From positions 124,001 through 188,000 of the forward strand of contig NZ_MBSS01000068.1 of assembly GCF_001695855.1 (NCBI RefSeq): a DNA stretch of 64,000 bases, given 5' to 3'. Positions within the stretch are counted from its first letter, which is position 1; every line of letters starts with the position of its first letter. Under the pieces are notes generated by a model. That model did no database searches. It saw only the letters and a list, made by a program, of their open reading frames with translations, and was not told where the DNA came from. Positions 8,546-34,006 of the stretch are shown here, in pieces. The DNA is from Ensifer sp. LC163 (GTDB taxonomy: Bacteria > Pseudomonadota > Alphaproteobacteria > Rhizobiales > Rhizobiaceae). The position numbers and the translations under genes were made by a program.

Positions 8546-9748
8546 CTAAGGGCGCGTCAACAGCAGCGATATGCCCTGTCCGACGCCGATGCACATTGTG
8601 GCTATCGCGTGCCTGCCGTCCCGAAGCTCAAGCTCCAGCGCAGCGGTCAAAGCCAGGCGCGCGCCGGACATGCCGAGCGGATGCCCCAGGGCGATGGCGC
8701 CGCCATTGGGATTGACGCGAGCGGCATCGTCGGCGAGGCCGAGTTGCCGCATGCAAGCGAGCGACTGCGCGGCAAACGCCTCGTTTAGTTCGAAAATGTC
8801 GATATCGCCGATGCCGAGGCGGTGCCGGTCGAGAAGTTTGCGGGTGGAAAAGACGGGGCCGATCCCCATGATGCGCGGTGCGACGCCTGCCGTTGCAACA
8901 CCGCTGACCTTCGCAAGCGGCCTGAGGTCGTAGCGCTCGACGGCGTAGCCGGAAGCAAGAATGAGCGCTGCCGCCCCGTCGTTGACGCCCGAAGCATTCC
9001 CGGCCGTGACCGTACCGTTAGCGCGGAACGGCGTCGGAAGGCTTGCAAGCTTCTCGATGGTTGTCTCGCGCGGGTGCTCGTCCTGTTCGACGAGTGTCGT
9101 CTCACCCTTGCGCCCCTTAATCGGGTAAGGGGCAATCTCGCGCGCGAAACGCCCCTTCTTCTGCGCAGCTGCGGCGCGCGCCTGACTGCGGAGCGCAAAG
9201 CCATCCTGATCGTCGCGCGAGACAGAAAATTCCGTGGCGACGTTTTCGGCCGTCTCAGGCATCGAGTCTATGCCGTATCGTTTTTCCATGAGCGGGTTGA
9301 CGAATCGCCAACCGATCGTCGTGTCGTATATCTCGGCGCTGCGCTGGAAGGCGCTTCCGGCCTTCGGCATAACGAAGGGCGCGCGCGACATGCTTTCGAC
9401 GCCGCCGGCAATCACGATTTCCGCCTCGCCCAGGCGGATGGCGCGCGCGGCGTAACCGACAGCGTCCAGCCCGGAACCACAAAGCCGATTGATCGTCGTT
9501 CCGGGAACCGTGTCCGGCAGTCCCGCAAGCAACGAGGCCATGCGGGCCACATTGCGGTTGTCTTCGCCGGCCTGATTGGCACAACCGAGGACGACTTCAT
9601 CAATCCTCTCGGCAGGCACGCTCGGAAAGCGTGCCAGCGCCTCGCGGATTGCGTGAGCAGCAAGATCGTCGGGCCGCGCCGCCGACAAGGCGCCGCCGTA
9701 GCGACCGATTGGCGTGCGGACGCCACCAATGACATAGGCCTCGCTCAT
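8546..9748 (-). CDS. pcaF: 3-oxoadipyl-CoA thiolase (PcaF/PaaJ type)
   Basis: This 400-residue thiolase should cleave 3-oxoadipyl-CoA with CoA to succinyl-CoA and acetyl-CoA. It has the acyl-accepting cysteine in NRLCGSGLDAV (about residue 90), the base histidine in ALGHPLGMSGAR and the second cysteine in TMCIGVGQG. Beyond generic thiolase motifs it has stretches I associate with PcaF: GCANQAGEDNRNVARM, DTTIGWRFVNPLM and YGIDSMPETAENVA. The length is exactly PcaF-like. Its ATG overlaps the stop of the upstream hydroxyacyl-CoA dehydrogenase gene. It is the last gene of the 2-aminobenzoyl-CoA operon and suggests that 3-oxoadipyl-CoA is the terminal intermediate; no other beta-ketoadipate gene is nearby. 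Confidence 0.86.
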   Translation of the reverse strand: MSEAYVIGGVRTPIGRYGGALSAARPDDLAAHAIREALARFPSVPAERIDEVVLGCANQAGEDNRNVARMASLLAGLPDTVPGTTINRLCGSGLDAVGYAARAIRLGEAEIVIAGGVESMSRAPFVMPKAGSAFQRSAEIYDTTIGWRFVNPLMEKRYGIDSMPETAENVATEFSVSRDDQDGFALRSQARAAAAQKKGRFAREIAPYPIKGRKGETTLVEQDEHPRETTIEKLASLPTPFRANGTVTAGNASGVNDGAAALILASGYAVERYDLRPLAKVSGVATAGVAPRIMGIGPVFSTRKLLDRHRLGIGDIDIFELNEAFAAQSLACMRQLGLADDAARVNPNGGAIALGHPLGMSGARLALTAALELELRDGRHAIATMCIGVGQGISLLLTRP

Positions 9749-11724
9749 GGTGTCAGATCCTTGTCTTGCTGCGCGGCGAACATTGGCCCACCCTTGTGCG
9801 CCGGAAAGCCGTAGCCGTTGATCATCACCAGGTCGATGTCGCCGGGACGCGCGGCAATGCCTTCGGCCAGCAGTGCCATCCCTTCATCGTCCATCGCCTT
9901 GAGAAGCCGGCTCATGATCTCCTCCGCAGTGAAAGGGCGCGGCGTGATGTTCTTGGCGGCCCGCGCCGCTTCGATTACCGTGGTCACTTGCGGATCGACG
10001 GAGCGCTCGCCATTGGGGTAGGTGTACCAGCCGCGGCCGCTCTTGCGACCGAGACGACCCGCCTCGCAGAGCCTGTCGGCGATTTCGACATACCGTGCGG
10101 ACGGATCTCGGGTCGCGGCCAGCCGCTTCCGACGCGCCCAGGCGATCTCCAGTCCGGCCATGTCGTTGACGGCGAAGATCCCCAACGGAAAGCCGTAGGC
10201 CTCCAGCGCCGCATCGATTTCCTGCGGCAGGGCGCCATCCTCAAGCATGAACTCCGCCTCACGGCGATAGGCGGAAAAGATGCGGTTGCCGATGAAGCCT
10301 TCGGTGACGCCGCAGACGATGGGCAGCTTGCCGAGACGCTTCGCGAAGGCAAGTGCGGTCGCCAGAACGTCAGGCGCTGTCTTGGAGCAATCGACGACTT
10401 CGACAAGGCGCATGACGTTGGCGGGCGAGAAGAAGTGCAATCCCACCACCCGCGACGGATTGGCCGTCGCTGCTGCAATCGCATCGGGATCGAGATAGCT
10501 CGTGTTGGTCGCGAGAATGGCACCGGGTGCAACGATGCCATCGAGCCTCTGCAACAATTCCGTCTTGACCTGGAGGTCGTCGAACACCGCTTCGATAACG
10601 AGATCAGCGGTGGCGAGTTCTGTCGCTTCGATGGTCGTCTGGAGCCGGGCGAGGCAGTCATCGCGCCGGCTCGCCGTCAGGCGTCCCGACTGGACGGATT
10701 TGTCGAGAACTCCAGCAATGCGAGCGCGACCATTGTCGGCTGCTTCTTGCGTCTGTTCCAGGCCGATGACGCGATAGCCGGCGGTCAAGGCTGATACCGC
10801 GATGCCTGCGCCCATCAGCCCGGTGCCGACCACGGCGACGGTCTCGATCTTTCGTGGTGAAACCTTGTCGAGTCCCTCGACCTTGCCGGCGGCGCGCTCG
10901 GCGAAAAACACGTGGAGAAGAGCAGCAGATTCGGCGGAATCGCGCAGGCGCAGGAAGGTAGCGCGTTCTTGTGCCAGTCCCTCCGCCAGGTCCAGCTCAG
11001 CCGCGGCCCTGACCAGTCGAACGGCCTCGACTGGAGCCGATTGGCCGCGGGCTTTCGCGAGGATTTTCGCTTCCGCGGCGCTTACGGCAGCGGCGTCCGT
11101 GGCCGGAACGTCGGTCAAGCCAGTTCGGCGGAGCGGATTCCTGGCGCATTCGCGCACGAGTGCGAGCGCTGCGGCGAGATGATCTGCGGTGATACCGTCG
11201 GCGAGCCCGAGCGCCTCTGCTTCTTCCGCCTTGACGGTGCGCCCCATGCCGATGAGGTCGATGGCCGCAAGCACGCCGATCAGCCGTGGCAGACGTTGCG
11301 TGCCACCTGCGCCCGGGACAAAGCCGAGCTTGACTTCGGGCAGTCCGAACGAGGCCTTCTCGCTGGCGATGCGGCCGTGGCAGGCGAGCGCCACCTCGCA
11401 ACCGCCACCAAGTGCCGCGCCGTTCACGGCAGAGACGACCGGCTTGTCGAAGTTCTCGATGCGGTCGATCACCTCGGGAAGTGCCGGTTCGACCGGCGGC
11501 TTGCCGAACTCCTTGATGTCAGCCCCGCCAATGAAGGTGGTGCCCGCACCGGTGATCACGAGACCGGCAATCGTCGGAAGATCGGCAGCATGGTCGAGCG
11601 CCGCCATAAGGCCGGACCTGACATGCGCAGAGAGGGCGTTGACGGGCGGGTTGTCTATGGTGACGACGAGAACGTCGCCTTCATGAAGGGCGGAGACACT
11701 CGCCGAAAATCGGATCTCGGACAT
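9745..11724 (-). CDS. Bifunctional enoyl-CoA hydratase / 3-hydroxyacyl-CoA dehydrogenase
   Basis: This 659-residue FadB-like fusion has an N-terminal crotonase domain (about residues 8-190; oxyanion segment FIGGADIKEF, and LPEVKLGFVPGAGGTQRLP with the catalytic Glu). A Rossmann NAD-binding 3-hydroxyacyl-CoA dehydrogenase domain follows (VAVVGTGLMGAGIAVSAL, about 296-311; GLHFFSPANVM with the catalytic His), then the C-terminal dimerisation domain. It would hydrate and oxidise a CoA ester, plausibly giving 3-oxoadipyl-CoA for the following thiolase. The ATG at 11724 is preferred over one 15 nt upstream because a TGAGG sequence lies 9 nt before it. It follows the RidA-like gene by 11 nt. Confidence 0.88.
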   Translation of the reverse strand: MSEIRFSASVSALHEGDVLVVTIDNPPVNALSAHVRSGLMAALDHAADLPTIAGLVITGAGTTFIGGADIKEFGKPPVEPALPEVIDRIENFDKPVVSAVNGAALGGGCEVALACHGRIASEKASFGLPEVKLGFVPGAGGTQRLPRLIGVLAAIDLIGMGRTVKAEEAEALGLADGITADHLAAALALVRECARNPLRRTGLTDVPATDAAAVSAAEAKILAKARGQSAPVEAVRLVRAAAELDLAEGLAQERATFLRLRDSAESAALLHVFFAERAAGKVEGLDKVSPRKIETVAVVGTGLMGAGIAVSALTAGYRVIGLEQTQEAADNGRARIAGVLDKSVQSGRLTASRRDDCLARLQTTIEATELATADLVIEAVFDDLQVKTELLQRLDGIVAPGAILATNTSYLDPDAIAAATANPSRVVGLHFFSPANVMRLVEVVDCSKTAPDVLATALAFAKRLGKLPIVCGVTEGFIGNRIFSAYRREAEFMLEDGALPQEIDAALEAYGFPLGIFAVNDMAGLEIAWARRKRLAATRDPSARYVEIADRLCEAGRLGRKSGRGWYTYPNGERSVDPQVTTVIEAARAAKNITPRPFTAEEIMSRLLKAMDDEGMALLAEGIAARPGDIDLVMINGYGFPAHKGGPMFAAQQDKDLTP

Positions 11725-11735
11725 GTCGGCAAGCC

Positions 11736-12131
11736 TCAATCAGGGATGACGGCGGTGGCCTGGATCTCGATCTTGGCCCGGTCTTCGACCAGCGCGACCA
11801 CCTGCATTGCCGCCATGGCCGGAAAATGCCGGCCGATGGTTTCGCGGTAGGCCTGGCCGATGCCGCGCAGGTTACCGACATATTCCTGCTTGTCGGTGAA
11901 GTACCACGTCATCGAAGTGATGTGCTGCGGTTCGGCGCCGCCAGCGGCGAGCACCGCAACCACGTTCTTCAGCGTCTGGCGCACCTGCTCGACGAAATCG
12001 TCGGTCTCGAACTCGGAGCGTTCGTTCCAGCCGATCTGGCCACCGACGAAAACAGTGCGGCCCTTGGCGGCGACGCCATTGGCGTAGCCGATGGGCTTTG
12101 CCCAACCTTCAGGTTGCAGGATGGTGTGCAT
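11736..12131 (-). CDS. RidA/YjgF-family protein lacking the canonical Arg
   Basis: This 131-residue protein has the RidA fold signatures GRTVFVGGQIGWN, QVRQTLKNV, WYFTDKQEY and KIEIQATAV. RidA proteins hydrolyse reactive enamines and imines, releasing ammonia. The arginine that binds the substrate carboxylate in E. coli RidA (FPARSCVEV) is replaced: the segment reads FPAMAAMQVV, with Met106 in that place. In this operon the substrate carboxyl would be a CoA thioester, so loss of that Arg fits an enamine-CoA deaminase that removes the 2-amino nitrogen. This is my inference. The gene overlaps the thioesterase gene by 23 nt. Confidence 0.82.
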   Translation of the reverse strand: MHTILQPEGWAKPIGYANGVAAKGRTVFVGGQIGWNERSEFETDDFVEQVRQTLKNVVAVLAAGGAEPQHITSMTWYFTDKQEYVGNLRGIGQAYRETIGRHFPAMAAMQVVALVEDRAKIEIQATAVIPD

Positions 12132-12537
12132 TGGTCGTCTCCAGATGTTGTGTCAGTGCGGCGCGGATGTCATCCGGCCATGCCAAAGAAGCGTGATTGT
12201 CGAGCGAGGTGGCAACGACGCGCTGGTTAGCCGTCCAGAGCACAGTGTCCCTGGCGGAAACCGAATGTTCCATGTCGAGCGACGAGCGGCCAATGCGTCG
12301 GACCACGAGGGTAAAATCGAGCGCGTCGCCCTGAAAGCCCGGACGCGCGAAGGTGAGATCGAGGCGCACGGTCGGCACGCCGATCCGTCGCTCGTCGTTC
12401 ATCGCCTTCCAGGGAAAGCCGAGCGACGCGAAGAAGTCCTCGGTCACCCCGACGAGGATGTTGAGATAGGACGGGAAGTAGGCGATCCCTGAGGGATCGC
12501 AGTCTCCGAACCGCAGCGGCCTCTTGGTCCTGAACAT
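12109..12537 (-). CDS. 4-hydroxybenzoyl-CoA-type hotdog thioesterase
   Basis: This 142-residue single hotdog-fold acyl-CoA thioesterase has the active-site block RFGDCDPSGIAYFPSYL, with the Asp of the 4HBT/YbgC family (D-P-x-G). The helix FASLGFPWKAMNDE and strands TVRLDLTFARPGFQGD follow. The ATG at 12537 is favoured over one 15 nt upstream because GAGG lies about 9 nt before it. It starts 11 nt after the glutaryl-CoA dehydrogenase gene and overlaps the RidA-like gene. Similar thioesterases accompany aerobic aromatic-CoA pathways, where they may rescue CoA from dead-end thioesters; that role is inferred. Confidence 0.85.
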   Translation of the reverse strand: MFRTKRPLRFGDCDPSGIAYFPSYLNILVGVTEDFFASLGFPWKAMNDERRIGVPTVRLDLTFARPGFQGDALDFTLVVRRIGRSSLDMEHSVSARDTVLWTANQRVVATSLDNHASLAWPDDIRAALTQHLETTNAHHPAT

Positions 12538-12548
12538 CGATGCCGACC

Positions 12549-13736
12549 TCAATTGGCGAAGGCGGCGATGCCGGTGATGGCACGGCCAAGGATCAGCGCG
12601 TGGATGTCGTGCGTGCCCTCATAGGTGTTAACCACATCGAGATTGACGAGGTGGCGGGCCACCGGAAACTCGTCCGAAATGCCGTTGCCGCCGAGCATGT
12701 CGCGCGCGGTTCGGGCGACTTCCAGCGCTTTGCCGCAGGAGTTGCGCTTGAGGATCGACGTCAGTTCGACCGGCGGATTGCCTTCGTCCTTCATCCGTCC
12801 GAGGCGCAGGCACCCCTGCAGGCCAAGGGCAATTTCCGTCGCCATGTCCGCGAGCTTCTTCTGGATCAGTTGGTTGGCGGCGAGCGGCCGGCCGAACTGC
12901 TTGCGGTCAATGACGTATTGGCGTGCCGTCTCGTAACAGGATTCGGCCGCGCCGAGCGCACCCCAGGCGATGCCGAAGCGCGCGGAATTGAGGCAGGTGA
13001 AGGGACCCTTCAGTCCGGTCACATCGGGCAGCAGGTTTTCTTCCGGCACGAAGACCTCGTCCATGACGATCTGGCCGGTGATCGAGGCCCTCAAGCCCAC
13101 CTTGCCATGGATTGCCGGTGCGCTCAGGCCCTTCCATCCCTTTTCGAGGATGAAGCCGCGGATAACGCCATCAGCGGTCTTTCCCCAGACGACGAAGACG
13201 TCGGCGATCGGTGCATTGGAGATCCAGGTCTTGGAACCGGAAAGCAGATAGCCGCCATCGACCCTGACGGCGCGGGTGATCATCGATCCCGGATCGGAGC
13301 CGTGGTCTGGTTCGGTGAGGCCGAAGCAGCCGATCTTCGTTCCGGCAGTCAGTCCAGGCAGGTATTTGCGCTTCTGGTCTTCGCTGCCGAACGTGTAGAT
13401 TGGCACGATCACCAGGGAAGACTGGACGCTCATCATCGAGCGGTAGCCGCTGTCGATGCGTTCGATCTCGCGGGCGATCAGGCCGTAGGACACATAGTTC
13501 AGTCCCGCCCCGCCATAGTCTTCGGAGACCATGGGGCCGAGCAGGCCGAGTTCGCCCATCTCGGCAAAGATCGACGGATCGGTCTTTTCGTGGCGGAACG
13601 CCTCCTGCACACGGGGGGCAAGCCGGCCTTCGGCGTAGCCCTCAGCGGTGTGGCGCACCATGCGCTCTTCTTCTCTCAACTGTGCATCCAGGTTGAATGG
13701 ATCCTGCCAGTCGAATGACGCCTTTGAGCCATGCAT
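12549..13736 (-). CDS. gcdH: Glutaryl-CoA dehydrogenase-like flavoenzyme
   Basis: This 395-residue acyl-CoA dehydrogenase has the features of glutaryl-CoA dehydrogenase: [38 protein letters not shown], the FAD segment [14 protein letters not shown], and the catalytic base Glu in [17 protein letters not shown]. Glutaryl-CoA dehydrogenase oxidises and decarboxylates glutaryl-CoA to crotonyl-CoA using ETF. The ATG at 13736 has GGAGGG 8 nt upstream; an in-frame GTG lies 9 nt further up. Its presence in the 2-aminobenzoyl-CoA operon suggests a six- or five-carbon dicarboxylyl-CoA intermediate. The true substrate could be a relative of glutaryl-CoA. Confidence 0.85.
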
Positions 13737-13751
13737 GCTCGACACCCTCCG

Positions 13752-14948
13752 TTATCCTGCTACGCCCTTCATCAGCTCGCGGCCGATGATGAGCTTTTGA
13801 ACCTCGGTCGCGCCCTCGTAGATGCGCAGCGCCCGGATCTCGCGATAGAGCCGCTCCGTGATCTCGCCGACGCGCACGCCACGGCCGCCGAAGAGCTGCA
13901 GCGCCTGGTCGATCACCCATTGCGCATTCTCGGTTGCCGTCATCTTGGCCATTGCGGCTTCGCGGGTCGTCGGCCGCTTCTGCACGTCGCGTTGCCAGGC
14001 GGTGCGGCACGTCAGAAGTGCGGCGGCGTCGATTGCGGTCGCCATTTCGCCGAGCGTGCTTTGTGCCGTCGGTAGATCGGCAAGCGTCGCGCCGAACATC
14101 TTGCGGCTTTTCGCATGCGACACAGCCTCGTCGAGCGCTCTCCGGGCAAAGCCGATAGCGGCCGCGGCGACGGAAGGGCGGAAGATGTCGAGGGTGCGCA
14201 TGGCAATCTTGAAGCCTTCGCCCGGACTTCCAAGAAGCTGTGACGCCGGGATACGGCAATTGTCGAAGCGAAGCCGGGCGAGCGGATGTGGCGCAATCGT
14301 CTCGATGCGCTCGGCAATCGTGAAGCCGGGGGTGTCGGCGAAGACCACGAAAGCGGAAATGCCGCGGGTGCCGGGCGCTTCGCCGGTGCGGGCAAAGACC
14401 GTGTAGGCGTCGGCGATGCCACCGTTCGAGATCCAGGTCTTTTCGCCATCGAGCACGAAGTGGTCGCCGTCGCGCCGGGCAGCACAAGCCATCGCCGCGA
14501 CATCGGATCCGGCATCGGGCTCGGAAAGCGCAAAGGCTGAAATCCATTCGCCGCGGGCGACTTTGGGCAGAACCGTCTGCTTCAGCGAATCGGAGCCGGA
14601 AAGGCTGATCGCGCCGGTGCCGAGCCCCTGCATGGCGAAGGCAAAGTCGGCAAGGCCATCGGTATAGGCAAGCGTTTCGCGGATGAGGCAGAGCGCCCGG
14701 CTGTCGATCTCGTCGCTTGCGCCGTCGAACGCCTTCGGCACGCAATGGCGAAGCACGCCTGCGGCGCCGAGAGCGCTCACTAGCTGTCGGCAGGCGGCAT
14801 CGACATTTGAGTGATCGATCTCGCCCAGGCCGCCGCCGGCTACGAACGCGTCCAGCTCCGCCGCAAGAGCGCGATGGCCTTCCTCAAAAAACGGCCAGTC
14901 GAGATGATCGCGGGTCGGCCGATGCGGCGCCTTCGCATGGGAACTCAT
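13752..14948 (-). CDS. Acyl-CoA dehydrogenase
   Basis: This 398-residue FAD enzyme of the acyl-CoA dehydrogenase family should introduce a 2,3-double bond into a CoA ester and pass electrons to ETF. Visible motifs are [37 protein letters not shown] and the C-terminal [21 protein letters not shown], with the catalytic Glu in YEGATE. The N-terminal domain is divergent ([15 protein letters not shown]), which suggests an unusual, perhaps alicyclic, acyl group. It starts 2 nt after the enoyl-CoA hydratase stop and ends 15 nt before the glutaryl-CoA dehydrogenase start. A role on a reduced 2-aminobenzoyl-CoA-derived ring or ring-opened product is inferred. Confidence 0.85.
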
Positions 14949-14950: not shown

Positions 14951-15793
14951 TCAGTTTCCCCTAAACTCGGGCTTTGCCTTGGCGGCAAAGGCCTCGAAGG
15001 CGCGGCGGAAGTCGCCGGTCGCCATGCAGATCGCCTGGGCCTGGGCTTCCGATTCGATCAGCTGGTCGATGCCCATCGCCCATTCCTGGTCGAGCATCTT
15101 CTTCGTCATCGCATGGGCAAACCACGGGCCATCGGCGATGGTGCGTGCGAACTTCTGGGCCTCGGCAAGCAGCGACGGGCGCTCGTGCAACGCGTTGTAG
15201 AAGCCCCAGGCATGGCCCTCGGCCGCGGTCATCACTCGGCCGGTGAAGAGCAGCTCGCCGGCGCGGCCTTGGCCGATGATGCGGGGAAGTATGCCGCAGG
15301 CGCCCATGTCGGCCCCCGCGAGCCCGACGCGGCTGAAAAGAAACGCCGTCTTTGCTTCCGGTGTTGCGACGCGGAAATCAGAGGCCATCGCCAGGATTGC
15401 TCCCGCGCCGGCGCAAATGCCGTCGATGGCGGCGATGACGGGCTGGGGGCAGGCGCGGATCTGGCGCACCAGCTCGCCGGTCATGCGGGTGAAATCGAGC
15501 AGATCGGGCATCGACATGCGTGTGAGCGGCTCGATGATCTCGAAGACGTCGCCGCCGGAGGAAAAATTGTCATCGGCGCCGGTCAGCACCACGGCGCGCA
15601 CATCGCTGGCGCGGGCAAGCGACCGGAAGAGGTCGCATAGCTCCTCGTAGCTCTCGAAGGTCAGCGGGTTCTTCTTTTCCGGACGGTTGAGCGTGATCGT
15701 CGCGACCCGGCCGTCGGCATCCGTTTCGAACAGGAAGTGCTTCGCCTTGTGATCCCTAAAGGCACGCTTCTTGGCCTGCATCGGGTTTGTCAT
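14951..15793 (-). CDS. Crotonase-family enoyl-CoA hydratase/hydrolase
   Basis: This 280-residue crotonase-fold protein has [18 protein letters not shown], the oxyanion-hole segments [11 protein letters not shown] and [17 protein letters not shown], and [18 protein letters not shown]. Where classic hydratases have the GxGGTQRLPR region, this one reads [17 protein letters not shown]. The catalytic acids of a simple hydratase are therefore changed, and a hydrolase or ring-opening role is as likely as hydration. The ATG at 15793 begins 2 nt after the SDR stop. Its place just downstream of the SDR and the monooxygenase/reductase suggests an early step after ring reduction. Confidence 0.85.
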
Positions 15794-15795: not shown

Positions 15796-16568
15796 CTATC
15801 CTCCGAGAACTTCGCCGCCGGCAACCGCGATGGCCTGGCCGGTCATCGCGCTCGCCTTTTCCGACACGAGCCACGAGACGGTGTGGGCCACCTCGCCAGG
15901 TGTCACCAGCCGCCCTTGCGGATTGGAGCGCGCGAGGCTGGCGCGTGCTTCTTCGCGCGAGCGGCCGGTCTTTTCGCTGATCGTATCGAGCGCGCCGTCA
16001 ATGAGCGGCGTGTCGGTGAAACCCGGGCAAACGGCATTGATCGTGACGTCGGTGCGCGCAAGCTCGAGTGCCAGCGCCCGCGTCAGGCCGATGACGCCGT
16101 GCTTCGATGCGCAATAGGCCGATACGTAAGCATAACCAGTCAGGCCTGCCGTGCTCGCGACATTGACGATCCGGCCGTTGCCGGCACGGCGCACCGAGGC
16201 AAGTGCTGCCTGCGTTACGAGGAAGACCCCCGTCAGGTTGATGGTCAACACCCGCTGCCAGAGCGCGAGATCGGTTTTCTCGAACGGCGCCGAAGGCGCT
16301 TCCCCGGCGCAATTGACGAGAACAGCGATCTCTCCGGCCCGTGCGATCGCGCTTGAGACACCGCGTTCGACTGCCACCGGGTCGGTTACGTCGAATCCTT
16401 CGCAAAGGAAGGCCTGTCCGCCCGACGAGAGGATTTCGTCTCGCACGGCCTCCAGCGGTGCCGCGCGCCGTCCGGCGAGGCTGACGATATGGCCGTCTGC
16501 CGCGAGCGCCAGCGCGATCGCCTTGCCGATGCCGCTTCCCGCACCTGTAACGAGGGCATGCCTTCTGG

Positions 16569-16572: not shown

Positions 16573-18890
<2,318 letters not shown>

Positions 18891-22494: not shown

Positions 22495-22499
22495 CGATC

Positions 22500-25787: not shown

Positions 25788-26470
25788 ACGCCGAGATAGC
25801 GGTCCTGGACCGCCGACGTCAGCGCTGTCGGTGCCCCCTCGAACACCGTCGCGCCCTTCTCCAGGACGAAGCAGCGATCGGCCACGGGCAGCAATTCCGA
25901 AAGCGTCTTGTCGACGACGAGGATCGACTGGCCGGCTGCCTTGAGCGTCCGGATCGCCGACCAGATGTCCTGCCGGATCACCGGCGCCAGCCCCTCGGTT
26001 GCTTCGTCGAGAATGAGCAGGCTGGGGTTGGTCATCAGCGCCCGGCCGATGGCAAGCATCTGCTGCTCGCCGCCCGACAGCGTGTTGGCATATTGATCGC
26101 GCCGCTCGCCGAGGCGGGGAAAGAGCGCGACCACCTTCTCGAATGTCCATTCGCTGCCGCGGGCAGTGGCAACGAGGTTCTCCATGACGGTGAGATTGGG
26201 AAAGCAGCGCCGTCCCTCGGGCACGAGGCCGAGACCGAGCCTGGCGATGCGATGCGGCCGCATGCCTGAGATCGCCTTGCCCGCAAAGCTGATCGCGCCG
26301 GCGCGCGGGCGCACGAGGCCGAGGATCGAGTTGATTGTTGTCGTCTTGCCCATGCCGTTGCGGCCCATGAGGGCTACCACTTCTCCCTCTCGCACATCGA
26401 GATTGACGCCGAAGAGCGCCTGGGAAGCGCCGTAGAATGTCTCCAGGCCTTTCAGTTCGAGGAGCGTCAC
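25784..26470 (-). CDS. Branched-chain-type ABC transporter ATPase (LivF-like)
   Basis: This 228-residue ATPase of the hydrophobic amino-acid (HAAT) family has Walker A ALMGRNGMGKTT, the LivF-type segment GLGLVPEGRRCFPNLTV, the signature LSGGEQQMLAIGRAL and Walker B LLILDEATEGLAP. It overlaps the LivG-like gene by 4 nt. It is last in the operon that begins with 2-aminobenzoate-CoA ligase and tryptophan dioxygenase, so the importer probably takes up an aromatic such as anthranilate or kynurenine rather than leucine. Confidence 0.92.
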   Translation of the reverse strand: MTLLELKGLETFYGASQALFGVNLDVREGEVVALMGRNGMGKTTTINSILGLVRPRAGAISFAGKAISGMRPHRIARLGLGLVPEGRRCFPNLTVMENLVATARGSEWTFEKVVALFPRLGERRDQYANTLSGGEQQMLAIGRALMTNPSLLILDEATEGLAPVIRQDIWSAIRTLKAAGQSILVVDKTLSELLPVADRCFVLEKGATVFEGAPTALTSAVQDRYLGV

Positions 26471-27216
26471 GCGGCTTCTCCCAGATAGGCGCGGCGAACT
26501 TCCGGGTCGCCGCGGATTTCGTCGACCGTGCCTGTGGCGATGATGCGGCCATAGACGAACACGGATATCCGGTCCGCGAGCGCAAAGACCGCGTCCATGT
26601 CGTGTTCCACCAGCAGCATCGGCGCTTCGTGGCGCAAGCCGTCGAGGAATGACGTCAGCCGCTTCGAGCCCTCCGGCCCCATGCCGGCCATCGGTTCGTC
26701 GAAGAGAAAGGCCTTCGGCGAAAGCGCCAGCGCGATGGCGATTTCGAGCTGGCGACGCTCGCCGTGGGAGAGTTCCGCCGCCGGCACATGAGCGCGTGCG
26801 GCGAGGTCGACGCGCTCCAGCATCGCCATGGCCGGTTCGGTCAGGTCCTTGTCGTCCGTCACCTGGCGTAAGAAGCGGAAGCTGCTGCCTTGCCGCGCCT
26901 GCACCGCCAGCATGACGTTGCGCAGCGCGGAAAACTCCTGTGCAAGCGAGGAAATCTGAAAGCTGCGCGCGAGACCGAGCCGGGCGCGAGCGGCCATGTC
27001 GAGCCCGCCTATGTCCTGGCCGAGAAAGCGGATCGTGCCGCTGTCGGCCCTGAGCGAACCGGCGATCTGATGGATGAGCGTGCTCTTCCCCGCACCGTTG
27101 GGTCCGATCAGCGCGTGGATCTGCCCCGGGTGAAGCTCAAGGCTGACCCCGTCGGTCGCCTTGAGCGCGCCGAATGATTTTCTGAGATCGCGGATTTCAA
27201 GAACTGGCTCAGACAT
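26467..27216 (-). CDS. Branched-chain-type ABC transporter ATPase (LivG-like)
   Basis: This 249-residue ATPase has Walker A IGPNGAGKSTLIHQI, the LivG-type ARLGLARSFQI and the signature AELSHGERRQLEIAIAL. SHGE replaces LSGG, as is normal for LivG, and the Walker B region is FLFDEPMAGMGPEG. The ATG at 27216 overlaps the end of the LivM-like gene by 8 nt. It pairs with the LivF-like ATPase as a heterodimer on the cytoplasmic face. Confidence 0.92.
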   Translation of the reverse strand: MSEPVLEIRDLRKSFGALKATDGVSLELHPGQIHALIGPNGAGKSTLIHQIAGSLRADSGTIRFLGQDIGGLDMAARARLGLARSFQISSLAQEFSALRNVMLAVQARQGSSFRFLRQVTDDKDLTEPAMAMLERVDLAARAHVPAAELSHGERRQLEIAIALALSPKAFLFDEPMAGMGPEGSKRLTSFLDGLRHEAPMLLVEHDMDAVFALADRISVFVYGRIIATGTVDEIRGDPEVRRAYLGEAA

Positions 27217-28180
27217 GACGCGGCTTTCCCGAGAGCAGACCCAGCAACCCGCCGCGCGCAAAGAGCACGATGCCGAGCAGGATGAGGCCTAGGAAGAATT
27301 GCCAGCGCTCGGTGATGCCGCCGAGCACATACTCGAAGAGGACGAAGATCATCGCGCCGGCGACAGGGCCGAACAACCGCCCCTTGCCGCCGAGGATGAT
27401 CAGGACGATCAGTTCGCCCGACATGTGCCAGGACATCATCGAGGGGCCGACGAAGCGATTGAGGTCGGCATAGAGCGCGCCGGCGAGCCCGGTGATCATG
27501 GCGGAGACGGCAAAGGCGACGAGCCGGATGTTGAAGGGTTCGATGCCGACTGCCGCTAGGCGCGTGCCGTTCTGTCTCGCCGCCTGCAGGGCGCTGCCGA
27601 AGCGCGACCCCTCGACCACGCGGAACAACAGAAGTGCGGCCATGAGCGCGGCATAGCAGATCAGGAAATAGGGCAAGGGCTTGGCGGTGTTGACGCCGGG
27701 AAAGGCGTTGCGCACCGACAGGGACAGGCCGTCCTCGCCGCCGTAGGCCGGCCAGGAAATCGCGAAATAGTAGATCATCTGCGCGAAGGCGAGCGTGATC
27801 ATGATGAAATAGACGCCTGATGTGCGCAGGCTGATGGCACCGATCGGCAGGGCGACGAGGCCTGCGACGACTACCGCCGTGATCCAGATGAGCGGCATCG
27901 ACGTCGTTGCCGGAATGCCGGCGATGAGCGGTTCGGCATTGAAGGCGTGGGTTGCGAGGATGCCGGCGACATAGCCGCCGAGGCCGAAGAAGGCCGCGTG
28001 TCCGAAGGAAAGCAGTCCGCCGAGCCCGAGCGCGAGGTTGAGGCCGACGGCGGCAAGCGCTAGGACGACGACGCGGGTCGCGAGCGTCACGTAGAAGGGT
28101 TCGCCCATGCCGGCGGCCAGAAGCGGTGCACCGAGGAGCAGCAGGGCAAACAGCAGATTGATTGTGGTTTCGCGGCTCAT
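27209..28180 (-). CDS. Branched-chain-type ABC transporter permease (LivM-like)
   Basis: This 323-residue inner-membrane permease has about nine hydrophobic segments. The LivM hallmarks are ALAAVGLNLALGLGGLLSFGHAAFFGLGGY and the cytoplasmic coupling loop RFGSALQAARQNGTRLAAVGI. The ATG at 28180 lies 7 nt after the LivH stop, and similarity begins there. It forms the translocation pathway with LivH for the adjacent HAAT-type binding protein. Confidence 0.92.
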   Translation of the reverse strand: MSRETTINLLFALLLLGAPLLAAGMGEPFYVTLATRVVVLALAAVGLNLALGLGGLLSFGHAAFFGLGGYVAGILATHAFNAEPLIAGIPATTSMPLIWITAVVVAGLVALPIGAISLRTSGVYFIMITLAFAQMIYYFAISWPAYGGEDGLSLSVRNAFPGVNTAKPLPYFLICYAALMAALLLFRVVEGSRFGSALQAARQNGTRLAAVGIEPFNIRLVAFAVSAMITGLAGALYADLNRFVGPSMMSWHMSGELIVLIILGGKGRLFGPVAGAMIFVLFEYVLGGITERWQFFLGLILLGIVLFARGGLLGLLSGKPRHV

Positions 28181-28187
28181 CGGGACC

Positions 28188-29108
28188 TCACGACTGTGCC
28201 GAAAACAGGCCGCTCGGCCTGAAGGCGAGGATGAGCGCCATGACGACATAGATCAGCATCGAGGCCAGCGCCGCGCCGATCGTGGTCGCCTGCGACGCGG
28301 GCATGGCGAGCGCGAGCATCGAGGGAAGCAGGAAGCGGCCCATCGTGTCGACCACGCCGACGATCACGGCCCCGACGAGGGCGCCCTTGATCGAGCCGAT
28401 GCCGCCGATGACGATGACGACGAAAGCGAGGATGAGGACCGGTTCGCCCATTCCGACCTGCACCGACTGGAGCGCGCCGACCAGTGCGCCTGCAAGGCCT
28501 GCAAGTGCTGCGCCGAGTGCAAAGACGACCGTATAGAGGGTGCCGATGTCGACACCGAGCGCACCGATCATCTCGCGGTCGGATTCGCCAGCGCGAATGC
28601 GCATGCCGAGCCGGGTCCCGGAGATCAGCAGATAGAGGCCGACGGCCACGGCGATGCCGACGCCGATGATCGCCAGGCGATAGAGCTGATACTGGCCGCC
28701 GCCGGGCAGGGGAACCGCTCCCTGAAGCAAGGGCGGAATGTCGAGATAGAGCGGGAACGAACCGAAGAGCCAGCGCGCGCCTTCGGACAGGATCAGGATC
28801 AGTGCAAAGGTGGCGAGCACCTGATCGAGATGATCACGGTCGTAGAGCCTGCGGATGACGGCGACCTCTATGATCGCCCCGACACCGGCGGCGGCCGCGA
28901 GACTGGCAATCAGGCCGATCCAGAAGGAGCCGGTCGCGGCTGCGACCGTGGCGCAGGCGAAGGCGCCGATCATATAGAGCGAGCCATGGGCAAGGTTGAT
29001 CAGGCCCATGACGCCGAAAATCAGGGTCAGGCCGGCGGCCATCAAAAACAGCATCACACCGAGTTGAAGCCCGTTGAGCAGTTGTTCGATCAGGAGTGCG
29101 GTGAACAA
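28188..29108 (-). CDS. Branched-chain-type ABC transporter permease (LivH-like)
   Basis: This 306-residue permease has an N-terminus typical of LivH (LLIEQLLNGLQLGVMLFLMAAGLTLIFGVMGLINLAHGSLYM). The coupling loop TRLGMRIRAGESDREMIGALGVD and eight or so helices follow. The gap of about 93 nt from the upstream binding-protein gene has only weak secondary structure, unlike the other ABC operons in this window. Confidence 0.92.
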   Translation of the reverse strand: MFTALLIEQLLNGLQLGVMLFLMAAGLTLIFGVMGLINLAHGSLYMIGAFACATVAAATGSFWIGLIASLAAAAGVGAIIEVAVIRRLYDRDHLDQVLATFALILILSEGARWLFGSFPLYLDIPPLLQGAVPLPGGGQYQLYRLAIIGVGIAVAVGLYLLISGTRLGMRIRAGESDREMIGALGVDIGTLYTVVFALGAALAGLAGALVGALQSVQVGMGEPVLILAFVVIVIGGIGSIKGALVGAVIVGVVDTMGRFLLPSMLALAMPASQATTIGAALASMLIYVVMALILAFRPSGLFSAQS

Positions 29109-29201
29109 GGGACCGGTCCAAGCTTCATATCAGGAGGACATGGATCATCGACCGGATGCCGGCGTTGCAGCCGAACACCCGGTGACAACGTGTGCGAAAC
29201 G

Positions 29202-30341
29202 TTACATCCCGCACTTCTCGGCGTAGGCGTCCTTGTGATCTTCGAAGGCGGTCGCGATGATCCGGTTGGTCAGGGCGCCGTCGTCTTCCTTCACCACCTC
29301 GCGGACATAGATGTTCTGGATCGGGTGGTTGTTGTTGTTGAAGGCGAACTCACCGCGGACGGACTTGAAATCCGCCGCCTTGAGAGCCGTACGGAAGGCG
29401 TCCTTGTCCTTGACGCTCGCCTTCGAAAGCGCGGCGAGGATCAGGTTTGCCGTATCCCAGCTTTGCGCCGCGTAGATCGACGGAAGACGCTTGTACTCGG
29501 CCTTGAAGGCCTCGACGAACTTCTTGTTGGCCTCGTTGTCGAGGTCCTTGGACCAGGTCGCCGAGTTCTTGACGCCGAGCGCTGCGTCGCCGATCGCCGG
29601 CAGAACGTCCTGGCTGAAGGAGAAACCGGGACCCATGACCGGGATGCCGACGCCCGATTGGGCATATTGCTTCATGAAGGCGATGCCCATGCCGCCGGGA
29701 AGGAAGAAATAGACCGAGTCGGCGCCCGAAGCGCGGATCTGGGCGATCTCGGCAGCATAGTCCGTCTGGCCGACCTGCGTGTAGATCTCGCCGGCAAGGT
29801 CGCCCTTGTAATACCGCTTGAAGCCGGTCAACGCATCCTTCCCGGCCGGATAGTTGGGCGCCAGGATGAAGGCGTTCTTGTAGTCCTTGTTGGCGTACTG
29901 CCCCATCGCCTCATGGAAATTGTCGTTCTGATAGGCGACGTTGAAATAGTTCGGGTTGCAGTTCGCACCGGCAAGCGCCGAGGGACCGGCATTGGGCGAG
30001 AGATAGATCACATCCTGCGCGACCGTGTTCGGCACGACGGCCATCGCGAGGTTCGACCAGATGATCCCGGTCATGAGGTCGACCTTGTCGCCCTGGATCA
30101 TCTTCTCGGCGATCTGCACCGCAAGTTCCGGCTTCTGGGCATCGTCCTCGATCACCAGTTCCACGTCCTTGTTGCCCGATTGCTTGATCGCAAGCGTGAA
30201 TGCGTCGCGCATGTCGATGCCAAGACCGGCGCCGCCGCCCGAAAGCGTGGTGATGACACCGATCTTCACCGGCTCGGCGTGGGCAAGGCTCGACGTTGCA
30301 AGCGAGAGGCCAAGAAGGCTCGCTGCCAGAATGCGGTTCAT
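29202..30341 (-). CDS. HAAT-type ABC transporter substrate-binding protein
   Basis: This 379-residue periplasmic protein has a signal peptide (MNRILAASLLGLSLATSSLAHA) and a Peripla_BP_6 fold: VKIGVITTLSGGGAGLGIDMRDAFTLA, DLMTGIIWSNLAMAVVPN, FILAPNYPAGKDAL, GADSVYFFLPGG and YAAQSWDTANLILAAL. Related proteins in aromatic-degradation clusters bind aromatic acids. Encoded 41 nt downstream of tryptophan dioxygenase, it probably captures anthranilate, kynurenine or a related compound. The terminal CGM is unremarkable. Confidence 0.9.
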   Translation of the reverse strand: MNRILAASLLGLSLATSSLAHAEPVKIGVITTLSGGGAGLGIDMRDAFTLAIKQSGNKDVELVIEDDAQKPELAVQIAEKMIQGDKVDLMTGIIWSNLAMAVVPNTVAQDVIYLSPNAGPSALAGANCNPNYFNVAYQNDNFHEAMGQYANKDYKNAFILAPNYPAGKDALTGFKRYYKGDLAGEIYTQVGQTDYAAEIAQIRASGADSVYFFLPGGMGIAFMKQYAQSGVGIPVMGPGFSFSQDVLPAIGDAALGVKNSATWSKDLDNEANKKFVEAFKAEYKRLPSIYAAQSWDTANLILAALSKASVKDKDAFRTALKAADFKSVRGEFAFNNNNHPIQNIYVREVVKEDDGALTNRIIATAFEDHKDAYAEKCGM

Positions 30342-30382: not shown

Positions 30383-31219
30383 TCAGAGACCTGTACGCAC
30401 ATGCCAGAGCTCGGGGAAGAGTTCCACTTCAAGCATCTTCTTGAGATAGGACGCGCCGGATGTTCCTCCGGTTCCGCGCTTCATGCCGATGATGCGTTCG
30501 ACGGTCGTGACGTGGTTGAAACGCCATCGGCGGAAGTAATCCTCGAAGTCGACCAATTTCTCGGCAAGCTCATAGAGCATCCAATAGCGCTCCGGATCAC
30601 GATAGACGGTCTGCCAGGCGGTGAAGACCTTGTCGCTTTCCTTGCGCGTTTCGCGCCAATCGGCCTTGTCGGCTTCCTCACCGACATCGAACCCGTTGCG
30701 CGCAAGAAGCCGGATCGCTTCGTCGTAGAGCGATGGCGCGGCCAGGATAGCCTCCAGCTTTTCCATGATGTCGGGGCGATGCGCGTGCGGTCCGAGCATG
30801 GCGACGTTGCGATTGCCGGCGAGGAATTCGATCGCCCGGTACTGCCACGACTGGAAGCCGGAGGATTGACCAAGCGACTCGCGGAACTGCGTGTATTCGC
30901 TCGGCGTCATCGTGCGGAGAACGTCCCAGGCGCTGTTCAACTGCTCGAAAATGCGCGCGACCCGCGTCAGCATCTTGAAGGCCGGTTCGAGCCGATCCTC
31001 GCGGATCGATCGCACCGCGGCGTAGATCTCGTGCAGAGCGAGCTTCATCCAAAGCTCAGAGGTCTGATGCTGAATGATGAACAGCATCTCGTCATGGGCA
31101 TTCGAGAGCGGCTCTTGTGCGTCGAGCACCTTCTCCAGCATGAGATAGTCGCTGTAGGACATGCGTCCCTTGAACGACATCTGGGCGCCTTCCTTCGAAG
31201 GATCGTATGAGCTGCTCAT
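30383..31219 (-). CDS. kynA: Tryptophan 2,3-dioxygenase
   Basis: This 278-residue heme dioxygenase opens the indole ring of L-tryptophan to N-formyl-L-kynurenine. It has the substrate-site [19 protein letters not shown] (H51), [18 protein letters not shown], the heme-ligand H236 in [15 protein letters not shown], and the GTGGTSG loop at 249-255. Length and motifs are those of bacterial KynA. The ATG at 31219 overlaps the region of the ligase stop (31222), so the two are tightly coupled. It is followed by the HAAT importer. Cotranscription of kynA with an anthranilate-CoA ligase links the first and fourth steps of the route. Confidence 0.96.
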
Positions 31220-31221: not shown

Positions 31222-32841
31222 TCAGTTCTCCGACCGCAATCGGAACCGCTGGATCTTGCCTGTTGCCGTCTTCGGCAAGCAGTCCAGGAACTTTACCGAA
31301 CGCGGATATTTGTAGGGCGCGATCGTCGCCTTCACGTGGTCCTGCAAGCGCTTGACCGTCGCGTCGTCTGCCGACACGCCTGATGTCAGCACGACATAGG
31401 CCTCGACAATCTGGCCGCGCTCGGCGTCGGGTGCGCCGACCACGGCGCACTCCGCGACCTCAGGGTGCGAGATCAAGGCCGCCTCGACCTCGGGGCCGGC
31501 AATATTGTAGCCGGCGGTAATGATCATGTCGTCCGATCGGGCAGCGAAGTGGAAAAAGCCGTCCTCGTCCTGGTAGAAGGCATCGCCAGTCAGGTTCCAG
31601 CCGTTGCGGACATAGTCGCGCTGGCGGGCATCGGCCATGTAGCGGCAGCCGGTCGGACCGCGCACCGCAAGCCTGCCGATCGTGCCGCGGGGAACTTCGC
31701 GCATCTCGTCGTCGACGATCCTCGCCTCGTAGCCACTGACGGGCTTTCCGGTCGAGGCGGCCTTGCGGTCCTCGAAGCGGTTGGAAATGAAGATGTGCAG
31801 CATTTCGGTCGCGCCGATCCCGTCGAGGATCGGCTTCCCGGTTTTGTGCGTCCACTCCTCGAAGACCGGACCCGGCAGCGTTTCGCCCGCCGAGATCGCC
31901 ACCCGCAGGGATGAAAGGTCCGCACCGTTGTCCATCGCCTTCATCATTGCCCGATAGGCAGTCGGAGCGGTGAACGAGATCGTTGCTCTGTATGTCTCGA
32001 TGATCTCCACCATGTTTGCAGGCGTCGCATGCTCGAGGAGCGTTGCCGCCGCCCCGAAGCGCAAGGGGAAGATCGCAAGGCCGCCGAGACCAAAGGTAAA
32101 GGCAAGCGGCGGCGAGCCGACGAAGATATCGTCGGGTGTGACCCCCAGGACTTCTCTGGCATAGCCGTCTGCGATCATCATCAGATCGCGATGGAAGTGC
32201 ATGGTCGCCTTCGGGATCCCGGTCGTGCCCGAGGTGAAGCCGAGAAGCGCCACGTCGTCCCGTCCCGTTCGCACCGCCTCGAAGACGACCGACTTGTCGA
32301 GTGCGATCCGGTCGAGCTCGGCGTCGTGGTTCGCTGTCCCGTCGAAACTGACGACCTGTTTCAGGTAACGGCTGCCCTTTGCGCAGGCGGTCATCTCGTC
32401 CATCAGACGCGTGTCGCAGAGCGCCAGGCTGATCTCGGCCTTGTCGATGATCTTGGTCATCTCTCCGGCTCTGAGCATCGGCATGGTGTTGACGACGACG
32501 GCTCCGGCCTTGGTGGCCGCCAGCCAACAGGCGACCATGGCGGGGTTGTTGGCGGAGCGGATGAGCACGCGGTTGCCGGGCCTGACGCCGTAATTCTCGA
32601 CAAGCGCATGGGCCAGCCGGTTCGTCCAGTCGGACAGTTCCTTGTAGGTTCGGCGGCGACCGTTGCCGATCAGGGCGGTATGGTCGCCAAAACCCTTGGC
32701 GACCATGGCGTCCGTCAGTTCGACGGCGGCGTTGAGATGGTCCGGATAGTCGAAGCCTTCGAGAAGGAAGTCCGGCCATTCTTCCGGTGGTGGCAGATGG
32801 TCACGGGTGAACGTATCGACGTGCGAAGTCGGTCCAAGCAT
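31222..32841 (-). CDS. abmG: 2-aminobenzoate-CoA ligase
   Basis: This 539-residue AMP-forming acyl-CoA synthetase has the P-loop-like [21 protein letters not shown], the adenine motif [33 protein letters not shown] and the catalytic-lysine segment [33 protein letters not shown] at the N-terminus is typical of 2-aminobenzoate-CoA ligases. I chose the ATG at 32841 because similarity begins there and AAGGGA lies 11 nt upstream; an ATG at 32886 has no ribosome site. It activates anthranilate to 2-aminobenzoyl-CoA, the substrate of the abmA product encoded 12 kb away. It is first in the ligase-kynA-importer operon. Confidence 0.9.
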
Positions 32842-33172
32842 GTGGCGGCTGTTCCCTTGTTCAGTTCCTGCCTGTTGCTCAGGCATTTTCAAAGCCGGCT
32901 GAAAGTCTTGCGGTCGTGCGGATCCCTGCCGGTCAAGTCGGGCACGGGTATTCCTGCCGCACCGTTACCGACAGCGTGCGTCGTCGCGAGGGCGACGCCA
33001 ATGATTGTGATTGGCACAGCGAGACCTCCACTTCTCGGCTGAACATGGGGCAGCATCGCACCGGTCAAAAATTATTTCAAGCCTAAAGTTTTTTTTCGGA
33101 CGACGCATTGCGTTTCCCGGTGGGGCGGGCGATTGCTATGCCTGAGGAGACATCAGAGGGAGAATTGCATCG
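32842..33172. other. Divergent promoter region between the ligase operon and the hydrolase gene
   Basis: These 331 bp hold no credible gene. The region carries the second copy of the MarR-operator-like motif (33074-33099) and must contain the promoters of both divergent units. I see no convincing -35/-10 pair. Confidence 0.55.
33074..33099. promoter_or_regulatory. Putative MarR operator B (ligase/hydrolase divergent region)
   Basis: ATTTCAAGCCTAAAGTT followed by a T-run and CGG matches operator A (18990-19014) apart from two substitutions in the core 17 nt and a small difference in the T-run. It lies about 230 bp upstream of the ligase start and 74 bp upstream of the hydrolase start, so it could act on either. 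Confidence 0.5.
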
Positions 33173-34006
33173 ATGCTGGAACACCGCGTTTCCGACTGGA
33201 ACGACGCTTATGCCAACGGCTCGAACATCGCGCGCGGCGACCGCTGGCCGGAGGCGTGGGTCAAGCCCGCCGAAGCATTCCGCAACGCCCTCTCGGCAGC
33301 CGGGCGCGCGAAACTCGACCTTGCCTATGGCGAGCGCCCGAGAAACCGCATGGACCTCTTTCTCCCTCAAGGTTCGGCCAAGGGTCTGGTCGTCTTCGTA
33401 CACGGCGGATTCTGGCTGCAGCTCGACAAGAGCTTCTGGTCCGATCTGGCTGCCGGTGCGGTCGATAGCGGCTACGCCGTCGCCATGCCTTCCTACACGC
33501 TTTGCCCCGAAATTCGCATCGCAGGCATTGTCGAAGAAGTCGCGACAGCAATCACCGAGGCGGCGAAGCTGGTCGACGGGCCGCTGATGCTGACCGGCCA
33601 TTCGGCAGGCGGCCATCTCGTCAGCCGAATGATCACGGCGACCTCGCCGCTTTCGCCTGATGTGCAGGCGCGCATCCGCAACGTCGTCTCGATCTCGGGC
33701 GTGCATGACCTGCGCCCTATCATGTCGACCGCAATGAACGAGAGACTTGCGATCGATGAAGCCGAGGCGCTGTCGGAGAGCCCGGCGCTGCTGCGGCCGA
33801 TGCGAAATGCCCGCATCACCTGCTGGGCTGGCGGCGGCGAGCGCGCGGAATTCCTGCGCCAGAATGCACTGCTTGCCAATATCTGGACGGGACTGGGCGC
33901 GACAACGGCTGCGGTCATCGAACCGGATAGGCACCACTTTAGCGTCATTGATGGCCTTGTTGACGCCGGACATCCGTTGACGCGGACCCTGTTGTCAGGC
34001 TCGTGA
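33173..34006 (+). CDS. Alpha/beta hydrolase, probable kynurenine formamidase
   Basis: This 277-residue alpha/beta hydrolase has the oxyanion-hole motif HGGFW at residues 77-81, the nucleophile elbow GHSAGGH at 142-148 (S144), an Asp following HDLRPIM, and the catalytic His region DRHHFSVIDGL. HGG[FY]W with GHSAGGH is typical of the alpha/beta-fold arylformamidases that hydrolyse N-formylkynurenine to kynurenine; it is unrelated to the KynB cyclase fold. GAGGGAG precedes the ATG. It is divergent from the ligase-kynA operon, and no other formamidase gene is visible, so it fills the second step. An esterase of other specificity remains possible. Confidence 0.75.
   Translation: MLEHRVSDWNDAYANGSNIARGDRWPEAWVKPAEAFRNALSAAGRAKLDLAYGERPRNRMDLFLPQGSAKGLVVFVHGGFWLQLDKSFWSDLAAGAVDSGYAVAMPSYTLCPEIRIAGIVEEVATAITEAAKLVDGPLMLTGHSAGGHLVSRMITATSPLSPDVQARIRNVVSISGVHDLRPIMSTAMNERLAIDEAEALSESPALLRPMRNARITCWAGGGERAEFLRQNALLANIWTGLGATTAAVIEPDRHHFSVIDGLVDAGHPLTRTLLSGS

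Follow-up and report, generated by a model that had tools for sequence, protein, structure and literature searches.

A probable two-module locus of Ensifer sp. LC163 for the predicted catabolism of tryptophan, kynurenine and anthranilate through anthraniloyl-CoA

Introduction

Can one rhizobial locus carry tryptophan, kynurenine and anthranilate into central metabolism through anthraniloyl-CoA? The question is raised by a block of about 25 kb (positions 8546-34006) in a 64,000-nucleotide (nt) stretch of Ensifer sp. LC163 (contig NZ_MBSS01000068.1; the whole stretch is the window hereafter), in which genes of the kynurenine pathway (kyn) adjoin genes of the CoA-linked anthranilate route (abm). 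The host genome is a 6.5-Mb draft assembly. The gene content and order of the block, its conservation and a palindromic box are plain from the comparisons below; the block is probably a two-module catabolic locus for the three compounds, with enzyme activities, ligands and the lower pathway predicted from sequence. Statements from cited papers refer to their accessible portions.

Among the pathways that GapMind omits "due to a lack of knowledge" is the breakdown of tryptophan by way of anthraniloyl-CoA monooxygenase/reductase (PMC9007349). The Ensifer locus brings together candidate genes for the steps that are lacking and an operator open to testing, along with candidates for a KynB substitute and for an endpoint at glutaryl-CoA. 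Rhizobial plasmids carry such a route, and the CoA half stands on one typed conjugative; this matters for how soil and root bacteria use tryptophan, kynurenine and anthranilate.

Gene content and order

The block consisted of nearly gapless intact open reading frames (ORF; ORF list plus family profile searches). All genes named in a sequence-only reading of the window were present with intact frames in the positions assigned to them, and thiolase, AbmA, KynU, KynA and ligase matched curated families over cut-off. The two importers that it listed (substrate-binding protein (SBP), ATPase and permease at 20667-23423; LivFGMHK at 25784-30341) and the two regulators (MarR and GntR) were recovered, as was the placing of kynA and the ligase gene in one operon, the kynA ATG (31219) lying 2 nt past the ligase stop (31224-31222). 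One acyl-CoA dehydrogenase of the beta-oxidation-like set was a glutaryl-CoA dehydrogenase by sequence comparison, and two genes were added, a thioesterase ORF (12109-12537) and a pyridoxal phosphate (PLP) enzyme beside KynU (24807-25775).

The minus-strand order was GntR, MarR, AbmA, short-chain dehydrogenase/reductase (SDR), crotonase, acyl-CoA dehydrogenase, glutaryl-CoA dehydrogenase, thioesterase, RidA, FadJ-like protein and thiolase, with only overlaps or short gaps from AbmA to thiolase. SBP, ATPase, permease, KynU and the PLP enzyme formed a plus-strand run. Next, on the minus strand, stood ligase, KynA and LivKHMGF, from which the hydrolase gene diverged. Features of the block were:

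8546..9748, minus strand: 3-oxoadipyl-CoA-type thiolase, PcaF family (TIGR02430 654 bits, cut-off 597)
9745..11739, minus strand: FadJ-like enoyl-CoA hydratase/3-hydroxyacyl-CoA dehydrogenase (4-nt overlap with the thiolase ORF; start may be some nt downstream)
11736..12131, minus strand: RidA-family protein, candidate enamine/imine deaminase of the AbmA product (TIGR00004 55 bits, below cut-off 106; PF01042 70.8, over cut-off)
12109..12537, minus strand: 4HBT_2 thioesterase (PF13279 E 6.5e-14 on ORF 12109-12552; start by analogy with the annotated L239 orthologue)
12549..13745, minus strand: glutaryl-CoA dehydrogenase, one of two genome copies (PDB 3gnc E 4e-206; human GCDH 1sir 5e-164)
13752..14948, minus strand: acyl-CoA dehydrogenase of the abm core (family match; matched in 22 of 40 further abmA loci)
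14951..15793, minus strand: enoyl-CoA hydratase-family protein of the abm core (NF006107 466 bits, cut-off 330; start by L239 analogy)
15796..16572, minus strand: SDR dehydrogenase of the abm core (family match; compared across further abm loci)
16569..18890, minus strand: AbmA, fused flavin monooxygenase/old-yellow-enzyme (OYE) reductase (NF006101 1353.6 bits, cut-off 1078; start by L239 analogy)
18988..19007, no strand: palindromic box 1, assigned to the adjacent MarR (conserved-gap alignment, weight matrix)
19113..19637, minus strand: MarR-family regulator (Pfam MarR_2 E 1.6e-8)
19732..20508, minus strand: GntR/FCD regulator of the kynurenine module (Pfam; divergent from the importer operon here and in abm-free loci)
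20539..20579, no strand: two AAATATATATAR repeats, candidate GntR operators (gap alignment)
20667..23423, plus strand: TrpX-type ABC importer (SBP, ATPase, permease), candidate kynurenine importer (NF041285 175.6 bits, below cut-off 390)
23439..24686, plus strand: KynU kynureninase (TIGR01814 366 bits, cut-off 246)
24807..25775, plus strand: PLP fold-type II dehydratase-like enzyme (PF00291; best NCBIfam EutB/threonine ammonia-lyase, below cut-off; start by L239 analogy)
25784..30341, minus strand: LivFGMHK-type importer, candidate anthranilate importer (LivG/LivM family, LivK Pfam, LivF/LivH translations plus annotated orthologues)
30383..31219, minus strand: KynA tryptophan 2,3-dioxygenase (TIGR03036 428 bits, cut-off 391)
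31222..32841, minus strand: 2-aminobenzoate-CoA ligase (TIGR02262, benzoate-CoA-ligase family, 380.5 bits, cut-off 375; nearest structure 4wv3; start by L239 analogy)
33072..33091, no strand: palindromic box 2, between ligase-kynA and hydrolase (conserved-gap alignment, weight matrix)
33173..34006, plus strand: alpha/beta hydrolase of hormone-sensitive lipase (HSL) type, candidate kynurenine formamidase

KynA and KynU matched the family profiles of the kynurenine pathway. AbmA was a fusion, its residues from about 425 on matching OYE structures and its N-terminal part VioD; the ligase was over the TIGR02262 cut-off with 4wv3 nearest, which indicates its substrate by sequence only. The chain drawn earlier, from tryptophan over N-formylkynurenine, kynurenine, anthranilate and 2-aminobenzoyl-CoA to the AbmA product, is supported by these matches.

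Conservation in Ensifer and replicons

Genomes and loci are cited by our own handles (G and L numbers). Near-full-length AbmA was found in 13 of 15 same-genus relatives (in G010 with one reported in-frame TGA), and the whole block was contiguous and ordered in 12 of these 13, so the order is not due to chance. The exception was G011, with the block split, KynA and the hydrolase on another contig and no thiolase match in place. Cluster glutaryl-CoA dehydrogenase (gcdH) was missing from three of the 12 order-keeping relatives (G003, G014, G015). Fourteen plasmid-filed records (9 Ensifer, 4 Sinorhizobium, 1 Shinella) held at least 80% of 9745-34006 at 83-88% identity; the block is plasmid-borne in these relatives, the host assembly itself being a draft.

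A fragmented copy of the block, with AbmA matches in four pieces and many genes unannotated, was carried by S. medicae pMl2 (L240), a plasmid typed conjugative.

Candidate operator boxes and regulators

When the inter-operon gaps of Ensifer were aligned, two conserved islands emerged, the first ahead of abmA and the second in the ligase-hydrolase gap, with ATTTCAAGCYTAAA in common. A palindromic box of approximately WWATTTYAAGCYTRAAATWW preceded abmA, and a second copy stood between ligase-kynA and the hydrolase. All 14 AbmA-bearing Ensifer genomes, host included, had the exact 14-mer at the abmA site; all 13 examined at the ligase site (G011 outside the set) had it there too. The box weight matrix was symmetrised and built on Ensifer sites alone (three distinct instances); the two window sites scored 28.2 and 24.7 bits and the next best 15.1, their own rank following by construction from such a matrix.

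Of 21 loci outside Ensifer, 18 had their best site upstream of AbmA or MarR, an outcome with a chance probability of 3e-14 given independent loci; the site of L203, counted among these 18, did not exceed its own shuffles. Fourteen of the 21 had a site of at least 20 bits. A site of at least 18 bits stood upstream of a cluster gene in 15 of 22 further abm loci (from 21 genomes; the remaining 18 of 40 loci repeat genomes of the 21-locus test); 26 of the 40 gave a match to a MarR gene. As a control, 3 of 72 kynU loci without AbmA (1.38 Mb) reached 20 bits, two of them (L116, L166) with the site close to KynU, so that some may be real. Nine abm-free GntR-importer loci scored at most 16.3 bits. The box lay between the abm operon and gcdH-kynA in G016, between gcdH-hydrolase and abmA in G307, and in G416 before a hydrolase-KynA-KynU operon; abmA of that genome, some 1.9 Mb away, had a box as well.

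The box was assigned to the adjacent MarR because it recurs upstream of abm genes across Alphaproteobacteria; from its position, MarR is the presumed binding protein. The earlier proposal of one regulatory unit was not supported, since the kynU-importer operon had a different regulator gene and different repeats and lacked the box of abmA and ligase-kynA: the GntR-SBP gap of the window carried AAATATATATAR twice in its place. As read here, two interleaved regulons would share the block, because the box stands before abmA and ligase-kynA while the GntR-importer gap has other repeats.

The box was rejected as a general kyn regulator. Of 20 kyn loci lying apart from abmA (part of the 49 KynA genomes not linked to AbmA), four had it (L178, L219, L223, L228), in L219 and L223 about 0.7-1.3 kb from KynA. 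In L228 (G077:C1), whose genome gave no AbmA match at E ≤ 1e-150, a strong box stood upstream of a MarR-KynA-KynU unit, the MarR of which may have shifted to controlling kyn genes. Beside the full abmA of G257:C18 (L209/L252) stood another AbmA-like match, partial and 28% identical, which had a box-like site of its own upstream.

Two proposed modules

The locus seems to be built of two modules with separate regulators, carried apart or reordered in other bacteria. Six of the 15 same-genus relatives had the GntR-SBP-ATPase-permease-KynU unit away from abm genes. G004 and G006, which had no full AbmA match and no KynA or hydrolase match either, carried this locus at 60-80% identity to that of the window; in G003, G005, G010 and G015 it was an additional copy. 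In R. freirei and R. rhizogenes, whose genomes had no KynA match, the hydrolase directly followed KynU of the same unit. The importer, kept beside kynU in KynA-free genomes, for that reason likely takes kynurenine or N-formylkynurenine and not tryptophan. In L085, another abm-free locus of this type, an aldehyde dehydrogenase gene followed.

The CoA half occurred alone on S. meliloti pSmeAK21a (typed conjugative), from thiolase to MarR plus ligase, with both boxes kept and, apart from a GntR remnant, no kynurenine or Liv genes. Liv genes adjoined the ligase in abm loci without kyn genes, and none of 40 abm loci chosen outside the linked set had kyn genes in the fetched 12-20 kb stretch.

Joining of kyn and abm genes

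Among 385 Alphaproteobacteria genomes, host included, AbmA (E ≤ 1e-150) was matched in 70, KynA (E ≤ 1e-50) in 56 and both in 42 (Fisher p 1.8e-25, kinship ignored). The two lay within 20 kb on one contig in 7 of the 42 (G000, G084, G215, G233, G307, G322, G406; coordinates read by eye, and contig breaks may hide more), and were also close in two same-family genomes, G016 and G022. AbmA was present in 8 of the best 80 of at least 594 kynU-centred named loci, in differing gene orders: three of Ensifer/Sinorhizobium, L109 (a metagenome-assembled genome (MAG), the same as G084), Caldimonas tepidiphila, two of Maricaulis (one MAG) and a Meiothermus MAG. The order in G322 was hydrolase / AbmA-SDR-MarR-crotonase-acyl-CoA dehydrogenase-ligase-KynU-KynA-Liv; in G209, acyl-CoA dehydrogenase, ligase and RidA adjoined KynA-KynU, with AbmA elsewhere. 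The joining, which had been called worth documenting, is on these counts recurrent and not unique.

Proposed function and alternatives

Module A (GntR, TrpX-type importer and KynU, with the hydrolase in other rhizobia), under GntR control, would take up kynurenine or N-formylkynurenine and cleave it to anthranilate and alanine. Module B (MarR, abmA operon, ligase, Liv importer) would convert anthranilate to its CoA thioester, AbmA would dearomatise 2-aminobenzoyl-CoA, and the module would degrade the alicyclic CoA product. KynA is tied to module B through the ligase operon, so tryptophan would also enter, with the HSL-type hydrolase in the role of KynB. MarR most likely represses both module-B promoters via the common palindrome, and would be released by anthranilate or its CoA ester.

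Several observations weigh against this function or parts of it. In 35 of the 42 genomes that have both, AbmA and KynA were separated by over 20 kb or stood on different contigs. The box was missed in 3 of 21 abm loci (L195, L199, L207) and in 7 of the 22 further ones (L260, L263, L265, L267, L273, L278, L280), and was not found in the other 16 of the 20 kyn loci away from abmA. The SBP scored 175.6 bits vs the cut-off of 390 curated for TrpX of the tryptophan importer TrpXYZ, and the PLP enzyme fits no apparent pathway step. Clustered gcdH was found in 0 of the 40 further abm loci (12-20 kb stretches), and the PcaF-type thiolase could alternatively point to 3-oxoadipyl-CoA. Cupriavidus metallidurans CH34, to which kyn and abm genes are assigned, failed to grow on anthranilate (PMC8879955, accessible part) and was reported unable to use tryptophan (PMC2842291, accessible part), from which it follows that the genes need not give growth.

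The hydrolase is the step with the strongest competitor. Its gene, called formamidase-like earlier, was intact and by sequence likely substitutes for KynB, of which the canonical form (TIGR03035) was found in 0 of 41 genomes including the host at E ≤ 1e-20; the same search in 15 other genomes gave scores over cut-off in 5 and below in 1. The HGG[FY]W and GHSAG[AG]HL segments, which we take to be formamidase marks, and the alpha/beta hydrolase fold were present; H77, G78, G79, W81, G142-H-S-A-G146 and H255 were invariant in 18 aligned sequences, and the segments were common to the kynurenine formamidase of Drosophila. The hydrolase resembles animal kynurenine formamidase. An ordinary esterase, with N-formylkynurenine deformylated by another enzyme, is unlikely but is the most probable of the alternatives: the same segments occurred in 9n8r, named lipase, the nearest structures (2pbl and 9n8r) were not named formamidases, 5 of the 15 survey genomes lacking a KynA match had close homologues (E ≤ 1e-45), and homologues adjoined KynU in KynA-free genomes.

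Less probable is that the halves are neighbours without joint flux. Module A would then salvage kynurenine from outside to supply anthranilate or tryptophan, and module B would serve anthranilate from other sources, such as the breakdown of auxin (iad-type) or indole. Module A in G004 and G006 and the 40 abm loci without neighbouring kyn genes agree with such independence, as do iad loci, which end in anthranilate (PMC9613470, accessible part). Joint flux, the reading preferred here, is favoured by kynA standing 2 nt past the ligase stop with the common box upstream of the ligase, by the adjoining of kyn and abm genes in several unrelated orders, and by the box before the distant hydrolase-KynA-KynU operon of G416, whose abmA is itself boxed.

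The nearest solved structure to the ligase was 4wv3, "Anthranilate-CoA ligase" (E 6.5e-90), ahead of benzoate-CoA ligases. A fused OYE reductase domain, as in AbmA, is presumably the mark of a 2-aminobenzoyl-CoA enzyme. Action of AbmA and the ligase on salicylate (salicylyl-CoA 5-hydroxylase) instead of anthranilate, which the family name of NF006101 (bifunctional salicylyl-CoA 5-hydroxylase/oxidoreductase) would favour, is very improbable in view of this ligase match, this domain, the RidA and kyn genes within the loci, and an Arthrobacter protein assigned a 2-aminobenzoyl-CoA role at 50% identity to the Azoarcus enzyme (PMC3534580, accessible part).

The earlier claim of a route without catechol is plausible: no anthranilate dioxygenase was over cut-off in the host genome (best TIGR03228 469.5 vs 671.9). 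The best TIGR03228 gene was closer to BenA (745.7 bits, below cut-off 781), and was followed by BenB, BenC and BenD, over cut-off; because this match sits in a benABCD-type set, a benzoate-to-catechol route seems to exist.

Lower pathway

Cluster glutaryl-CoA dehydrogenase was closest to GCDH structures in the PDB search (E 4e-206), the first match named neither GCDH nor acyl-CoA dehydrogenase being 2ix5 (1.4e-71). It kept the SGYRS and NTYEGTHD segments, to which we ascribe catalytic roles in glutaryl-CoA dehydrogenase. A second, housekeeping gcdH copy stood at G000:C56 (69% identical to the cluster copy), and such a copy was present in all 16 Ensifer genomes (68-70% identical). The cluster copy was present in 11 of 14 AbmA-bearing Ensifer genomes, host included. 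Outside Ensifer, gcdH adjoined abm or kyn genes in G016, in G307 and on S. meliloti pSmeAK21a, and the hydrolase in G277 and G172; of the 80 kynU loci, 7 had it near kynA (Cupriavidus, Pandoraea, Caballeronia). The idea that gcdH belongs to abm clusters in general was rejected on the count given above; the housekeeping copy could serve in abm loci without a clustered one.

The extra GcdH with the PcaF-type thiolase, FadJ-like protein and RidA suggests that anthranilate yields three acetyl-CoA plus CO2 via glutaryl-CoA. RidA would convert the enamine to 2,5-dioxocyclohexanecarbonyl-CoA, SDR and crotonase would reduce and open the ring, and C7 dicarboxyl-CoA units would be shortened to glutaryl-CoA, which the extra GcdH would turn into crotonyl-CoA; these intermediates and the order of steps are predicted from the gene set. 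C7H8O4-CoA, which in Arthrobacter Rue61a was reported solely for cells grown on anthranilate (PMC3534580, accessible part), fits the deaminated AbmA product, 2,5-dioxocyclohexanecarbonyl-CoA. That the anthraniloyl-CoA route runs as a whole through RidA deamination, ring opening and shortening to glutaryl-CoA, ending in acetyl-CoA with a dedicated GcdH in Ensifer, and that MarR and the palindrome of approximately WWATTTYAAGCYTRAAATWW govern it across Alphaproteobacteria with kynA captured in Ensifer, is possible rather than probable.

Comparison with known systems

The locus is real and functionally coherent. It arranges known pathways in a new way and adds three testable elements: the box, the candidate formamidase and the proposed endpoint at glutaryl-CoA. 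Schuhle et al. (2001) reportedly described a MarR, a transport protein and a RidA-type protein for Azoarcus evansii. The aerobic abm pathway of that species resembles the block in its ligase, fused AbmA and beta-oxidation-type enzymes (PMC4539516, accessible part), whereas in Ensifer the block is joined to kyn genes and also includes a thioesterase, a complete Liv importer and an additional glutaryl-CoA dehydrogenase. KynA and KynU are common to beta-proteobacterial kynBAU; unlike kynBAU, the Ensifer block had no KynB found, an HSL-type hydrolase instead, its own importer and GntR, and KynA in the ligase operon. For Cupriavidus metallidurans CH34, the same chain from tryptophan to 2-aminobenzoyl-CoA has already been published as a genome reconstruction, with no single locus and no operator given in the accessible part of the source (PMC8879955). 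Aminobacter sp. MSH1 pUSP1 had nearly the same block, with kynA after the ligase, the hydrolase and both boxes, but no gcdH or thiolase in the locus. The PLP enzyme, kept within the block in Ensifer, stood between MarR and GntR on pUSP1. A literature search, with most subscription papers outside its reach, gave no report on a joint kyn-abm locus in rhizobia, on the MarR-assigned box or on glutaryl-CoA in the abm pathway.

Flanking repeats

A 100-nt two-hairpin repeat occurred just outside both block ends as direct copies 96% identical (8276-8375 and 34203-34302). Rfam gave no match over the gathering score at either copy. The block as an island bounded by these repeats was rejected: the repeat is dispersed in rhizobia (382 plasmid records matched, with up to 40 counted places per record) and therefore gives no evidence of a boundary. 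The copies could serve as recombination sites.

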